A DNA stretch of 64,000 nucleotides from an archaeon (GTDB taxonomy: Archaea > Thermoproteota > Nitrososphaeria > Nitrososphaerales > Gagatemarchaeaceae), in NCBI GenBank assembly GCA_016432545.1, contig CP066694.1:868001-932000 (forward strand), given 5' to 3'. The position numbers and the translations under genes are program-made. Each line of letters starts with the position of its first letter. Position 1 is the stretch's first letter. The notes under the pieces are model-generated. The model was not told where the DNA came from. It searched no databases and saw only the letters and a list, made by a program, of their open reading frames with translations. Below, piece by piece: positions 11,427-40,085 of this stretch.

Positions 11427-11721
11427 GCGATTCTGAAAAGTCTTGACCTGCGCCCGGACTTAAATGTTCTGTATGGAAATCACGTCCAAATTTCTTGGAC
11501 GCGTCTTTTTGAGAAAAGGGTGCCGGCACCTGGGCTTCGCGAAGGCTCTCGCACTTCACTAACACCAAGGCGACGCGCGGTTTTACTTCCAGGATCGGAA
11601 CGAGTCTGGGTAGGACCCGCGCGCTATGGCCGGCTGAAGGACGCGGGTCTCGGCAGAGTAGATTAACGTTTCTGGGCACGACGCGACCGTTTTATACCTC
11701 TGAAAGGACGTCTCAAGGGTC
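11427..11721. other. 295-nt intergenic region with divergent promoters
   Basis: Between the divergent DUF1512 and Trm112-like genes. A minus-strand TATA-like motif lies about 30 nt before DUF1512. A plus-strand ttttatacc at about 11689-11697 precedes the ATG-proximal start at 11722. The middle contains a GC-rich imperfect hairpin around gtgccggcac. No tRNA fold or coding ORF is seen. Confidence 0.5.
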
Positions 11722-15969: not shown

Positions 15970-16569
15970 GTGGCGCGCCTGCGGAGGTCCTTCTACGAGG
16001 GGCGGGCAGATAGAGTCGCCAGGGCACTCCTAGGCAAGAGGCTCGTGAGAGTCAGGGAGGGTCGGAGGCTGGCGGGAGTGATAGTCGAGACCGAGGCATA
16101 CAGAGGGACAAGGGACCCGGGGAGCCATGCCTACAGGGGAAGGAAGCCGAGGAACGCGGTAATGTTCGGAGACCCGGGCCATGCCTATCTCTACTTCACG
16201 TACGGCAACCACTGGATGCTCAACTTGACGTGCGAGCCTTCACAGAGGCCAGCCGCGGTCCTGATCAGGGCCCTTGAGCCCTCTGAGGGGGTCGCCCTGA
16301 TGAAGCGGAACCGTCGGGTGGAAGAGGAGGTCGAGATTGCCAGCGGCCCCGGGAAGCTTGCGAAGGCCCTTGGACTGGACGGGGCCTTGAACGGGGAGGA
16401 TGTCGTGACCTCTCGGAGGCTCTTCGTCGAAGACGGGCTTTCCGCGGGACGGATCGGAGTGAGTTCCAGGGTGGGCCTGAGCGAAGGGTGGGAGAGGAAG
16501 TGGAGGTTCTACATCGCCGGGAACAGGTTCGTTTCGAGGGGAAAACCGTCGCTTCCGCGGAAGCCATAA
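15970..16569 (+). CDS. 3-methyladenine DNA glycosylase (AAG/MPG family)
   Basis: Alkyladenine DNA glycosylase-type base excision enzyme that removes alkylated and deaminated purines. Family motifs are FYEGRADRVARALLGKRLVR, the catalytic-Glu segment VIVETEAYRGTRDPGSHAYRG, and NAVMFGDPGHAYLYFTYGNHWMLNLTCEP. Length of 199 aa is normal. Probably co-transcribed with the MFS gene. It and EndoQ form a small DNA-damage neighbourhood. Confidence 0.94.
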   Translation: MARLRRSFYEGRADRVARALLGKRLVRVREGRRLAGVIVETEAYRGTRDPGSHAYRGRKPRNAVMFGDPGHAYLYFTYGNHWMLNLTCEPSQRPAAVLIRALEPSEGVALMKRNRRVEEEVEIASGPGKLAKALGLDGALNGEDVVTSRRLFVEDGLSAGRIGVSSRVGLSEGWERKWRFYIAGNRFVSRGKPSLPRKP

Positions 16570-16597: not shown

Positions 16598-16726
16598 GGG
16601 GTCGTCGGCTAGGCCTTTGGTCTAATCATGTGGACCAAGGGGGCTAGTCTGGTCTAGGCTTTCAGCCTTGGGACACGCGCGCAAGAACGCTGAAGACCCC
16701 CGGTTCAAATCCGGGCGACCCCACCA
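16598..16726 (+). tRNA. tRNA-Pro (TGG) with two introns
   Basis: Acceptor GGGGTCG (16598-16604) pairs with CGACCCC (16716-16722); discriminator A 16723, followed by an encoded CCA (16724-16726). The T arm is CCCGG-TTCAAAT-CCGGG. The anticodon stem TCAGC/GCTGA encloses CTTGGG-C, with anticodon TGG at 16669-16671. A 15-nt 37/38 intron occupies about 16673-16687. A 35-nt intron interrupts the region between position 8 and the D loop (16606-16640 or, equally, shifted to 16613-16647 because GGCTAG is duplicated at both ends). It contains a hairpin built on TTGGTC/GACCAA. A TATA-like ataacta lies about 30 nt upstream. Confidence 0.9.
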
Positions 16727-16766
16727 TCGCTTTACTGAATTCGGACTATCATACCGTTAAATACAA

Positions 16767-18878
16767 TTGACAATGACGCGGAGAGACAGTTTGCAGGCGG
16801 CTCCTCGAAGGGTAAAGACGATCTACAGCGTAATCGCGTCCCCCCAGAGGCTCGAGATCCTCAGGATTCTCAACATCAAGGGCCCCCTGACCTACAGCGC
16901 GCTCAAGACTCTCGCAGGCTTCAAGTCCAAGAAGGAATCCGGGAAGTTCGCGTACCACCTCCGGAAGCTCGTCAAGCAGCTCCTGATTCAGCTCAACAGG
17001 CAGGAGAGGAAATACACCGTGACCAACCTCGGGAGGCTGGTGCTCAACCTGACCCGCCAGATCGAGGAGCAGTCCCTCGTCGAGAGCGGGAAGCTGTACG
17101 TGAGGACCTCTCACCAGACGATGGAGGAATTCAACGCCAACAAGATCTTGCAGTCCCTCGTAAAGGAGGCTGGGATGCCGGTAGAGCTGGCCCAGAAGAT
17201 CACCAGCGAGACAGAGTCGAGGCTCTACAAGTTCCAGACCCAATACCTGACGGCCCCTCTCATACGCGAGATAGTCAACGCGCTCCTAGTGGAGCACAGC
17301 ATGGAAGAGTACAGGCACAAGCTCACGCGGCTCGGGATGCCGATCTACGACGTGACCCAGCTACTGGGGAAGGCTGGCGACGACGGAGGGAACGTGGAAT
17401 CGCTGGTCCACCAGACCGGCAAGCAGGTCTTCTCCGAGTACCTGCTCCTCGAACAGCTCCCAAGGGACGTCGCCGACGCCCACCTGTCGGGAGACATCCA
17501 CATCGCAAACGCAGGCTCTTGGGGCCTGACCCCTGACACGGTCTTCGTCGACCTGCTCTCCGTCAGGAGCGCGGGCCTCAACCCTCGCGGAAGGATAGCG
17601 AACACTTCGATGATACCCAGCCCCGAGAACTCAGAGAGAGCCCTGGGGATAGTGCTCAACATGTCGTCGATGCTTACGAGGGAGGTCTCGGACGAGGTGA
17701 CCTTCAGGAACTTCCTGCAGTTCGTCGCGCCTTTCTGCAAGTCAAGGGGCAAGAGGGAGCTGGAGTCGCTCTTCCTGAGGTTCTTCGAAATGCTCAGCTC
17801 GCCGATGGCCGGCACTGAGGCGCCCGCGGTCAGCCTCGAGCTGAACCCGTACAAGCACGATGACATCGGAAGGGAGGTGATGGACAGGACGCTCGACGCC
17901 GCCCTCGGAGCCTACAGGAGCTTCGTAGAGGAGACGCCGAGGCCTGACGTCAGGCTCCTCCTGGCTAAGCCAGGCAGGGTCGACGAGACCAAGACGCTCA
18001 AAGACGCGGCCGCGATCATCTTCAACGGTGGGAGGATCGCCTTCTTCTCCTCGGACCAGAGGAGGAGCTTTCTCGGGCTCAACGCCAACATCCTCGGTCA
18101 GGACTCCCAGGCGGACAACATCAGCGTGCTGCACGGGCTGAGCCTGAACCTCCCTCGGCTCGCCTACGACTCCAACCAGGACGAGACGTACTTCAGAGCC
18201 AAGCTGGCGCTTCTCATCAGCGTGGCGGCAGACGCCCTTTCGACCAGGAGGAGGCTGATCGAGAGGACGCTGAAGCGGGGCCTTCTTCCATCTCTGGCTG
18301 CGGGGTCGGACGCAGTGACATCAGAGACGATGCCGCTGATAATGAACCTGGTCGGGATGGATGAGACGCTGGCCAGCCTGATAAGAGACCCGACAGTGTC
18401 GTCGAGGTACGAGCTCGCTGACAAGATCGTGGGCACCGCCGGGCAGGTGGCGGACGAGAAGTCGACCAAGATCGACAGGCTGGGAGTCGGGATGCTGGAC
18501 TTGGACGGTGCGCAAAGGCTCGCCTCCCTGGACGCGGAGAAGTACGGCAAGGCCAACCTTCAGCCGCTGCTCAAGGGAGCGTACTCGCAGGCCCCCAAGC
18601 TCGTCCTTGCGGACCTCGAGAACCCGGAGAAGACGGCCTACATCACGAAGCTCTCTTCGGGGCTCAACGGGGGGCTCTCGGTGATGCTCGACGGCTCCTC
18701 GGAGGACGTGCGCGGAGTCTACAACACGATCCTCAACGCGACGCCGAAGCTTCCGTACTTCAAAGTGGACAGGACGATCTCGGCCTGCAGGAATTGCGGG
18801 TCGAAGCTCGGGCAGGGGGATGCTCGCTGCCGGAGGTGCAAGTCGGTCGCGACTTTCCAGTATTCGACAGCGGCGTGA
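16767..18878 (+). CDS. HTH / ATP-cone / NrdD-like fusion lacking the glycyl-radical site
   Basis: A 703-aa fusion. Residues about 15-95 form an ArsR-type winged helix (IASPQRLEILRILNIKGPLTYSALK). Residues about 105-195 form an ATP-cone, the nucleotide-sensing domain of RNRs and NrdR. The remainder resembles anaerobic class III RNR, with LPRDVADAHLSGDIHIAN as clear NrdD signature. The C-terminus keeps a four-Cys zinc site (CRNC, CRRC) but stops at once after it, where NrdD enzymes carry the Arg-x-x-Gly-Tyr glycyl-radical loop, so it should not be catalytically active. Inferred role: dNTP-sensing transcription regulator of the adjacent class II RNR, analogous in logic to NrdR. Confidence 0.85.
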   Translation: MTMTRRDSLQAAPRRVKTIYSVIASPQRLEILRILNIKGPLTYSALKTLAGFKSKKESGKFAYHLRKLVKQLLIQLNRQERKYTVTNLGRLVLNLTRQIEEQSLVESGKLYVRTSHQTMEEFNANKILQSLVKEAGMPVELAQKITSETESRLYKFQTQYLTAPLIREIVNALLVEHSMEEYRHKLTRLGMPIYDVTQLLGKAGDDGGNVESLVHQTGKQVFSEYLLLEQLPRDVADAHLSGDIHIANAGSWGLTPDTVFVDLLSVRSAGLNPRGRIANTSMIPSPENSERALGIVLNMSSMLTREVSDEVTFRNFLQFVAPFCKSRGKRELESLFLRFFEMLSSPMAGTEAPAVSLELNPYKHDDIGREVMDRTLDAALGAYRSFVEETPRPDVRLLLAKPGRVDETKTLKDAAAIIFNGGRIAFFSSDQRRSFLGLNANILGQDSQADNISVLHGLSLNLPRLAYDSNQDETYFRAKLALLISVAADALSTRRRLIERTLKRGLLPSLAAGSDAVTSETMPLIMNLVGMDETLASLIRDPTVSSRYELADKIVGTAGQVADEKSTKIDRLGVGMLDLDGAQRLASLDAEKYGKANLQPLLKGAYSQAPKLVLADLENPEKTAYITKLSSGLNGGLSVMLDGSSEDVRGVYNTILNATPKLPYFKVDRTISACRNCGSKLGQGDARCRRCKSVATFQYSTAA

Positions 18879-18993
18879 CCGGGCGGATTTCTTCTGTTTG
18901 TGTCAAAAAGAGTTCACAGTTCTGCGCTTCATGTCATCGAGCGGCGTAGTCTAGCTCGCGGGTGGTTGTCAAATCGGAACAAGCCAAGAGTAA

Positions 18994-19002
18994 GATATAT
19001 GG
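18994..19002 (+). promoter_or_regulatory. TATA box of nrdJ
   Basis: gatatatgg lies about 30-37 nt before the ATG at 19031. It decides the start: the frame is open back to 18962, but those codons lie upstream of or across the expected transcription start. Confidence 0.55.
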
Positions 19003-19030
19003 AGCGAGGGATGGGGTCAAGGTTAACGTT

Positions 19031-21334
19031 ATGACGTCAATCGTTGAACAACCACGGGACTCTCCGAATGCCGGGGAACAGGGCAAGGTGGAGGTCCACA
19101 TCCCGGCTGAGACGCTCGCGGCGTTCGGAGGAGACGAACTGCGCTCGAGGGTCTTCTACGAAAAGTACGCACTTAGGGACCTGAACGGGGTTCAGGTCGA
19201 GAAGGTCCCCGGGGACCTGTGGCGGAGGGTCGCGAAGGAGCTCGCCTCGCCTGAAAGGGACGAGGAGAGGAAGAAGGAGTGGGCGTCGAAGTTCTACTGG
19301 CTGCTGGAGGACTACCGCTTCGTGCCCGGAGGTAGGATACTCTTCGGCGCCGGGCAGCCCAGGAAGTCCACGCTTCTCAACTGCTACTTCTTCAGGATAA
19401 AGGAAGACTCCATCGAGTCGATCTTCGATTGGTGCAAGGAGGCTGCCAGGACCTACAGCTTCGGGGGCGGGGTGGGGACGGACATCTCAGTCCTGAGGCC
19501 CAGGGGAGCCCCGGTAAACAACTCTGCAATCTACAGCTCGGGGTCGGTTTCCTTCATGGAGCTGCTCTCGACGACCACCGGCACAATCGGCCAGGCGGGG
19601 AGGAGGGGGGCGCTCATGATTACGATCAGGGTCGACCACCCGGACGTGATGGACTTCATCGGCGTGAAGAAGGACCTCAAGAAGGTCAACTATGCCAACA
19701 TCTCCATCAAGATTTCGGACGACTTCATGAAGGCGGTCGAGGCAGACACCGACTTCAGGCTTCACTTCAAGAACGAGAAGGTGGAGATGAACAGGACAGT
19801 TAGAGCCAGGGACGTCTGGAAGTCGCTGATCAAGGGCGCCTGGCAGTCCGCGGAGCCAGGGGTCCTCTTCTGGGACACGATCAAGCGCGAGTCGACAACG
19901 GAATACAACGGGATGGAGGTCCAGGGGGTCAACCCGTGCAGCGAGCAGACCCTGGAGAGCTATGGGTGCTGCTGCCTGGGGTCGGTCAACCTCAGCGCCT
20001 TCGTGAAGGAGCCCTTCACTGAGAGGGCGAGCATCGACTGGGAGTCGCTGACGAGGGCGACCCAGTACGGGGTCAGGTTCCTGGACAACGTCCTGGACTA
20101 CAACGCCGAGAAGCACCCGCTGAAGCAGCAGGGAGAGGCGTCCCTGCACAGCAGGAGGATCGGGGTCGGGATCACGGGCCTGGGCGACATGCTGATTAAG
20201 CTGGGGCTGAAGTACGACGAGGACTCTACGATAGGGTTCGTGGACCACCTCTTCGAGAGGATCAAGAACGTGATCTACGACTACTCGACGGAGCTGGCGA
20301 AGGAGAAGGGTAGCTTCCCCGCCTTCGACGCGGAGAAGCACCTCGCGCAGCCCTTCGTCTCGAGGCTCGAAGAGAAGGTCAAGGAGAAGATCCGCTCTCA
20401 GGGGATAAGGAACGCGGCGATAACCACAATACCTCCGGTCGGCTCCGGCTCCATACTCGCTGGGTGCTCGAGCGGGGTCGAGCCGGTCTTCGCGCTCTCC
20501 TACACGAGGAGGAGCAAGTCGCTTAGCGAGGGCGAGTTCAAGGTCTTCCACCCGCTCGTCAAGGAGTTCATGAAGGCTACAACGACGAGGGACGAGGCTC
20601 AGCTCCCCAACTACTTCGTCACGGCCCACGACATCAAGCCCGAGATGAGGGTCAAGATGCAGGCGACCATCCAGAAGCACATCGACACTGCGATCTCGAG
20701 CACAGTCAACCTCCCGGAGGAGATCACTCCTGAAGAGGTAGAGAGGATCTACATGCTCGCCTGGAGGATGGGGTGCAAGGGCATCACAGTCTACAGGGAG
20801 GGGAGCAGGGAAGGGATCCTCGAGACCGACAAGGTCGCCAAGAAGGCGGAGCAGAAGGCGTCCTTCGCGCGCCCCAGGATGATGGAGGGGAGGACGCTCA
20901 AACTGAAGCTCCCGCAGGGCGGGCTCTACCTGACGGGGAACCTGGCCGATGGCGAGCTCAAGGAGGTCTTCGTGACCCTCGGAAAGTCTGGAGGGGACGA
21001 GAAGGCCGACGCGGAGGCCCTGGGGAGGCTCATCAGCCTCTACCTGCAGCACGGAGGGGATACCAAGAGCATCATCTCGACCCTGAAGGGCATAAAGGGC
21101 AAGTACGTTTCATGGGACGAGGGGACCCAGCTCCTCTCGATACCGGACGCCATCGCGAAGGCCCTGGAGATAATGACCCTGAACCGCGTGGTCAAGGAGT
21201 CCTCGATGGGCCCGCAGGTAAACGCGAAGCAGTCTCACCAGGGCGGGACGTGCCCCGACTGCCACGAGAGCAGCCTCGTGTTTGAGAATGGGTGCTACAG
21301 CTGCAAGAATTGTGGCTACAGCAAGTGCGAGTAG
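19031..21334 (+). CDS. nrdJ: Adenosylcobalamin-dependent ribonucleotide reductase (class II)
   Basis: Class II RNR making deoxyribonucleotides using coenzyme B12. Visible features are the N-terminal region LLEDYRFVPGGRILFGAG, the specificity/active-site segment KSTLLNCYFFRIKEDSIESIFDWCKE (active-site Cys), SFGGGVGTDIS, the catalytic loop NPCSEQ in VNPCSEQTLESYGCC, and PPVGSGSILAGCSSGVEPVFALSY. The C-terminus is Cys-rich (CPDCHES, CYSCKNCGYSKCE), fitting the redox tail. The N-terminus has no ATP-cone of its own, whereas the neighbouring fusion protein has one. Start chosen from the TATA spacing; 767 aa from this Met. Confidence 0.93.
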   Translation: MTSIVEQPRDSPNAGEQGKVEVHIPAETLAAFGGDELRSRVFYEKYALRDLNGVQVEKVPGDLWRRVAKELASPERDEERKKEWASKFYWLLEDYRFVPGGRILFGAGQPRKSTLLNCYFFRIKEDSIESIFDWCKEAARTYSFGGGVGTDISVLRPRGAPVNNSAIYSSGSVSFMELLSTTTGTIGQAGRRGALMITIRVDHPDVMDFIGVKKDLKKVNYANISIKISDDFMKAVEADTDFRLHFKNEKVEMNRTVRARDVWKSLIKGAWQSAEPGVLFWDTIKRESTTEYNGMEVQGVNPCSEQTLESYGCCCLGSVNLSAFVKEPFTERASIDWESLTRATQYGVRFLDNVLDYNAEKHPLKQQGEASLHSRRIGVGITGLGDMLIKLGLKYDEDSTIGFVDHLFERIKNVIYDYSTELAKEKGSFPAFDAEKHLAQPFVSRLEEKVKEKIRSQGIRNAAITTIPPVGSGSILAGCSSGVEPVFALSYTRRSKSLSEGEFKVFHPLVKEFMKATTTRDEAQLPNYFVTAHDIKPEMRVKMQATIQKHIDTAISSTVNLPEEITPEEVERIYMLAWRMGCKGITVYREGSREGILETDKVAKKAEQKASFARPRMMEGRTLKLKLPQGGLYLTGNLADGELKEVFVTLGKSGGDEKADAEALGRLISLYLQHGGDTKSIISTLKGIKGKYVSWDEGTQLLSIPDAIAKALEIMTLNRVVKESSMGPQVNAKQSHQGGTCPDCHESSLVFENGCYSCKNCGYSKCE

Positions 21335-39771: not shown

Positions 39772-40085
39772 GGAAGGCGGGTCGACGGCCCTGACGCGAG
39801 CCGGTGAGCGGGCCACGGGGACCTCCTGAGGAAGTTCCTCCCTCGCAGCAGGACGCGCGGCGCCATGAGGCGCAGCCGGAGACGGCTGGCTCCAGAACAG
39901 AAACGAGACCCGGCCCATCAAGGGCGATGATAGGGCGACCTTGAGGTCGGTGGAGACCGGGGTGAAACGGCTGACCCGCGCGGAGCAAGGCCAAACGTGG
40001 TCGATGAGACGCCTGCCGGAGACCAGGGTAGGCCGCTGAGCCGAATCCCGCCTAAAACAGAAGGAGGACTATGGCCGGGACGCGT
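39772..40085 (+). ncRNA. rnpB: RNase P RNA (archaeal type A)
   Basis: Universally conserved RNase P blocks appear in order. They are gaggaagttcctcc (39829-39842, CR-I area), ACAGAAACGAGACCC (from 39897), ggcccatcaagggcgatga, ggtgaaacgg (39961-39970, CR-II/III), agcaaggccaaac (39984-39996, CR-IV), gatgag, gggtaggccgctgag (from 40026), and acagaaggagg (40057-40067, CR-V). The terminal helices are GC-rich; exact ends are estimates. A full-length RNA argues against a close relative of Pyrobaculum, whose RNase P RNA is much reduced. Confidence 0.9.

Follow-up and report, generated by a model that had tools for sequence, protein, structure and literature searches.

A fusion of a winged helix, an ATP-cone and an inactive NrdD-like region as a candidate dNTP-sensing regulator of archaeal ribonucleotide reductase genes

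To our knowledge, the control of dNTP supply in archaea is largely unknown. The locus described here raises the question of what a protein may do that looks like an anaerobic ribonucleotide reductase (RNR), has lost the parts needed for catalysis, carries a DNA-binding domain at its N-terminus and is encoded next to a complete class II RNR. The window, that is, the whole stretch of 64,000 nucleotides that was analysed, comes from an archaeal genome which forms a single contig of 1,504,237 bases. The gene in question and the parts of its product, hereafter referred to as the fusion, are as follows.

16791-18878, plus strand: fusion protein gene (HTH, ATP-cone, inactive NrdD-like region), 695 aa from TTG 16791; the longest open reading frame begins at 16767
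16821-17045, plus strand: ArsR-like winged helix (DUF7347 / HTH_20), residues 19-93 of the 703-aa frame
17097-17312, plus strand: ATP-cone, residues 111-182 of the 703-aa frame, with an RTS motif replacing KRDG
17382-18848, plus strand: NrdD-like (class III RNR) region, without the catalytic cysteines and without the glycyl loop
18786-18839, plus strand: NrdD-type zinc site CRNCGSKLGQGDARCRRC, the final element ahead of the stop

The initial annotation had described a 703-aa protein. This longest reading frame (16767-18878, plus strand) is indeed present, but the start is probably TTG 16791 (LQAAPRR), a codon conserved in the genus by alignment, which would shorten the product to 695 aa. We searched the 703-aa frame with Pfam and obtained the DUF7347 winged helix over its cut-off (E 1.7e-9) with HTH_20 slightly under, the ATP-cone PF03477 (E 9.8e-7, 29.7 bits against a cut-off of 25.8) and NRDD PF13597, again over the cut-off (E 1e-24). 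The NrdD equivalog models, on the other hand, scored far under their cut-offs (TIGR02487, 79 vs 326 bits), and the ArsR/SmtB metalloregulator model NF033788 reached 18.5 bits vs a cut-off of 55. After the zinc ribbon (CRNCG...CRRC) the chain runs on for only 12 residues before the stop codon, which leaves no glycyl loop. Two of the first claims made for this gene were in this way confirmed in the window: Pfam and fold matches recover the fusion of an ArsR-type winged helix, an ATP-cone and an NrdD-like region, and the NrdD part does stop after the zinc site, with the glycyl-radical loop missing.

The full-length fusion was modelled with AlphaFold2, using 43 relatives in the alignment, at a pLDDT of 84.6. 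The first 36 PDB matches found by Foldseek were all class III RNRs (9d3x, E 2e-21), and T4 NrdD (1h79), with which a comparison had been suggested, was among the matches with E 1e-15 and a TM-score of 0.69 by target, so that the NrdD barrel fold was recovered. A separate model of the N-terminal 195 residues (pLDDT 87.7) gave as its first Foldseek matches the ATP-cones of NrdR and regulators of the ArsR family, with weak E-values of 3e-4 to 1e-2; the winged-helix matches of the ArsR type were 3f6o, NolR, CadC and CzrA.

Some further genes in the window may be mentioned here. A tRNA-like gene, probably with an intron, lies just upstream of the fusion gene (16639-16723, plus strand); it was missed by ARAGORN and scored slightly under the Rfam gathering threshold (25.9 vs 29 bits). 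It is preceded by a gene which by eye resembles 3-methyladenine DNA glycosylases of the MPG/AAG type (15970-16569, plus strand; cluster c15) and which is kept near the fusion gene in several relatives. Rfam also identified the archaeal RNase P RNA gene at 39796-40083 and the 5S rRNA gene at 11518-11637.

If the fusion acts on DNA, its targets might be found close by, and the promoters of the fusion gene and of the adjoining nrdJ contain the following elements.

16755-16772, unstranded: candidate operator, TGTCAATTGTATTTAACG on the minus strand, overlapping the fusion gene's own TATA box
16757-16764, plus strand: TATA box TTAAATAC of the fusion gene, 34 nt ahead of TTG 16791
18901-18918, unstranded: candidate operator TGTCAAAAAGAGTTCACA upstream of nrdJ, the genome's only exact TGTCAAN6TTNACA match
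18930-18935, plus strand: CATGTC element of the nrdJ promoter footprint, by conservation
18967-18972, plus strand: further TGTCAA half-site of the same footprint, by conservation
18994-19001, plus strand: TATA box (GATATATG) of nrdJ, about 36 nt ahead of ATG 19031
19031-21334, plus strand: nrdJ, class II adenosylcobalamin-dependent RNR without an ATP-cone; the longest open reading frame begins at GTG 18962

The start of nrdJ is probably ATG 19031 and not GTG 18962, as both the TATA box and the conserved footprint point to the former. Since TATA boxes stand 34 and 36 nt before the two starts, the fusion gene and nrdJ seem to have separate promoters. In the spacer between the two genes, TGTCAA-N6-TTCACA, CATGTC, a second TGTCAA-like block and the TATA box are conserved, while the rest has diverged. 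The palindrome TGTCAA-N6-TTGACA was originally derived from sequences of the window's genus, and its enrichment was then assessed in families other than f1. There, an enrichment of half-sites with a gap of 6 was seen in the upstream regions of both nrdJ (z 5.1) and the fusion gene (z 4.7), and 282 other genes showed no such enrichment (z 1.5). In the window's 1.5-Mb genome, TGTCAAN6TTNACA with one mismatch allowed occurs at six places, both promoters being among them. By our own arithmetic, the five places that remain in 1.5 Mb would by chance put a match no farther than about 120 bases from the fusion's start roughly 4 times in 10,000; this match coincides partly with the TATA box. Other genomes gave a similar picture: two of the four places in G213 are the fusion and nrdJ promoters, the sole exact match lies at the fusion promoter in G162 and at the nrdJ promoter in G198, and one of the two exact matches in G026 lies at nrdJ. 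A scan upstream of nrdJ in families f3, f4, f5, f7 and f8 gave nothing clear. As a separate observation, the second exact palindrome of G026, TGTCAACAGCATTTGACA (L275, 4001-4018), lies at the beginning of a gene whose product is predicted to be a membrane or surface protein and which has no apparent connection with nucleotides.

We next consider how widely the fusion occurs and what accompanies it. It was matched in 280 of the 300 genomes of the class and, being conserved across the class, is far beyond chance; family f17 is largely devoid of it. Beyond the class, many other families of the phylum Thermoproteota were matched strongly by profile searches, often with proteins of 740-780 aa that have the same N-terminal parts; some further families gave weak matches only, and 20 of 250 genomes none. 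Several of these other Thermoproteota also retain a real NrdD alongside the fusion. As for the neighbouring genes, the initial annotation had asked whether the fusion is always adjacent to nrdJ. Within the window's order this holds without exception: in each of the named contigs that extend far enough (75 of 75), nrdJ is the next gene downstream and has the same orientation. Universal adjacency is nevertheless ruled out: f16, f19, f20 and one f3 genome have no nrdJ in the 6 kb or so around the fusion, and in other Thermoproteota the fusion is followed by a canonical nrdD in four loci (L152, L155, L156, L177) and by nrdJ in one (L146), with no adjoining RNR gene at the remaining loci. In family f18 the fusion gene and nrdJ are convergent. 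That the fusion does not stand next to an RNR gene in f16, f19, f20 and most other Thermoproteota counts against a regulator of RNR genes. The aspartate carbamoyltransferase genes pyrB and pyrI are found beyond the fusion or the RNR gene in many loci of both the Nitrososphaeria and the other Thermoproteota, which suggests an old gene order of fusion, RNR, pyrB and pyrI, in which the RNR gene has since been exchanged or lost. In many Thermoproteota (among loci L144-L183) pyrB and pyrI adjoin the fusion even where the locus has no RNR gene.

This arrangement could also be explained by a fusion that regulates the nucleotide pool more broadly, with pyrimidine and dNTP genes under its control and nrdJ as one target among them. 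Such a role would account for pyrB and pyrI beside the fusion in both groups and for the persistence of the fusion where no RNR gene adjoins. However, the palindrome is found at the fusion's own promoter and at that of nrdJ, and the other four matches in the window's genome (105475, 537661, 1177235 and 1311444) are at no evident promoter of a nucleotide gene, the one at 105475 lying inside a carB-like ORF. We therefore consider the broader role unlikely.

It was also proposed at first that the fusion supplies in trans the ATP-cone which the adjoining NrdJ lacks. The fusion would then be an allosteric partner that binds NrdJ and lends it the cone, so that dATP shuts the reductase off. The strict adjacency of nrdJ in the window's order is in favour of this proposal, and so is the lack of an ATP-cone in the window's NrdJ, which was confirmed by Pfam. 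Among the adjacent NrdJs, however, about half (36 of the 74 scored by motif) have a cone of their own; in the NrdJs sampled with Pfam it is present in f2, f3, f4, f6, f10, f11 and f18 and missing in f1, f8 and f9. Moreover, the NrdJs share 63-65% identity with that of the window in f8, f12 and f13 and only 26-40% in other families, whereas the fusion protein remains at 36-50% throughout the same families. Judged by these identities, the NrdJ beside the fusion belongs to several lineages, which have been exchanged for one another next to a conserved fusion. Since the fusion accompanies NrdJs both with and without their own cone, it is tied to the locus and not to one enzyme, as expected of a regulator acting at the level of DNA. 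Elsewhere it adjoins nrdD or no RNR gene at all, and its winged helix, for which a pure protein partner would have no need, is among the most constrained parts (see below). The own cones of so many adjacent NrdJs, the canonical NrdD as an alternative neighbour and the exchange of NrdJs lead us to reject the provision of a cone in trans as a general function, and we regard a partnership with NrdJ as quite improbable. Unusually long NrdJ frames of 1046-1149 aa were seen at four loci (L069, L074, L076 and L080), where inteins or a wrong start are possible.

Could the fusion still be an enzyme, with RNR or a related activity achieved through unusual chemistry? We compared 83 members of the fusion family (43 of the class and 40 from other families) with five canonical NrdDs of related genomes, and the equivalents of T4 C79, C290 and G580 are conserved in all five of these NrdDs. 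In the fusion family, all 83 members have lost the first active-site cysteine (C79) and the second-site CC pair (C290), with a single cysteine left at the latter in L152_6. The radical glycine is lost in 79 members; the four that have glycine in its column (L162, L163, L164 and L179) are all without the active-site cysteines. Most members keep the zinc cysteines. In the phylogenetic tree the fusion members of the class formed one group (100/100) and the real NrdDs another (100/96), and if the root is placed on the NrdD branch, the fusion family would be a single clade. The fusion gene is the sole NRDD locus and the sole ATP-cone locus of the window's genome, and no NrdG activase was found there above the cut-off, the best TIGR02495 score of 44.1 vs 131 bits being radical-SAM background. 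Residual catalysis by the fusion protein was rejected on account of the missing cysteines, glycine and NrdG. Although the NrdD fold and zinc site have been retained under purifying selection, an enzyme of unusual chemistry is very hard to reconcile with the loss of the active-site cysteines and radical glycine across the family, the missing activase and the complete class II RNR encoded next door, and we hold it to be highly improbable. It follows for genome annotation that NrdD-like matches in such archaeal genomes are not to be taken as a sign of anaerobic DNA synthesis.

The selection acting on the gene was assessed within the genus. Uncorrected synonymous divergence (pS) amounts to about 0.44-0.73 per site, while nonsynonymous divergence (pN) is 0.005-0.037 in the winged helix, 0.005-0.019 in the cone and 0.05-0.10 in the NrdD body. 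Constraint is thus much stronger on the winged helix and the ATP-cone than on the NrdD body, which is itself still under purifying selection. A decaying pseudogene or an annotation artefact, which the loss of the catalytic parts might bring to mind, is practically dismissed by a frame open in nearly every genome, a dN/dS of about 0.05-0.10 and the matches in nearly all genomes of the class noted above. At locus L092 (genome G089) the fusion gene is split by a frameshift or by decay into two ORFs of 492 and 184 aa.

Taken together, we favour, with a probability of roughly three in four, a fusion that is a pseudoenzyme working as an autoregulated, dNTP-sensing transcription regulator of RNR genes, similar to NrdR in its action without being NrdR. 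The transcription factor derived from an enzyme, as envisaged in the initial annotation, is thus supported, not proven, by the domains, the catalytic loss in every relative, the selection on winged helix and cone and the palindrome shared by the two promoters. In the mechanism that we propose, the ArsR-like winged helix would bind palindromes of the TGTCAA-N6-TTGACA type at the nrdJ promoter and at the fusion's own promoter. The ATP-cone would sense adenine nucleotides, ATP vs dATP, and change the shape or the oligomeric state of the protein; nucleotide binding is not certain, because an RTS motif takes the place of the classical KRDG. As in NrdR, the nucleotide bound by the cone would then alter both the oligomeric form and DNA binding. 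The dead NrdD body may serve as a dimerisation scaffold and possibly, through its old specificity site, as an additional dNTP sensor. In this manner the fusion protein would match RNR transcription to the dNTP pool and restrain its own synthesis. Autorepression is likely, judging from the position of the candidate operator over the fusion gene's own TATA box. At nrdJ the candidate sites are upstream of the TATA box, so control there could be activation or repression. A more far-reaching version is conceivable, although we doubt it: a whole RNR turned into a multi-input sensor, with the cone reading ATP and dATP and the old specificity site reading the other dNTPs, so that a single protein would gauge the pool of DNA precursors and govern RNR genes of class II or class III throughout the archaeal phylum.

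The closest known counterpart of the proposed regulator is NrdR (TIGR00244), the bacterial RNR repressor of about 150 aa, which has a zinc-ribbon DNA-binding domain and no RNR body. In both proteins an ATP-cone is joined to a DNA-binding domain, and the fold of the fusion's cone matches that of NrdR cones; they differ in that NrdR uses a zinc ribbon, whereas the fusion, an archaeal protein, combines an ArsR-like winged helix with a dead NrdD. NrdR itself was not found above the cut-off in 61 genomes of the class, including the window's. The class, to which ammonia-oxidising archaea belong, appears to be without NrdR, and the fusion offers a specific candidate for the regulator, together with a putative operator and an RNR gene as target. 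The organisms concerned are very abundant, and some of them are cultivated. For NrdR it is known that ATP or dATP in the cone sets the oligomeric form and DNA binding, and that the protein acts through palindromic boxes on the genes of several RNR classes and in many cases on its own gene (PMC9110341). The open-access papers searched by text, among them phylogenies of the RNR family (PMC9531940, PMC9669993), contained no description of an archaeal HTH and ATP-cone protein or of an inactive RNR acting as a regulator. With ArsR/SmtB regulators such as CadC, CzrA and NolR the fusion shares the fold of its N-terminal 90 residues, but its sensor would be the ATP-cone and the RNR body and not a metal site. 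Class III NrdD (TIGR02487, PF13597), finally, has in common with the fusion the ATP-cone, the barrel fold and the zinc site, and the RTS motif occurs in the cones of neighbouring archaeal NrdDs as well; the fusion, unlike NrdD, has lost the catalytic cysteines and the glycyl loop, has no NrdG and has gained a winged helix. In the course of evolution, an enzyme family appears to have given rise to a regulator that binds DNA and controls the pathway to which the family itself belongs.
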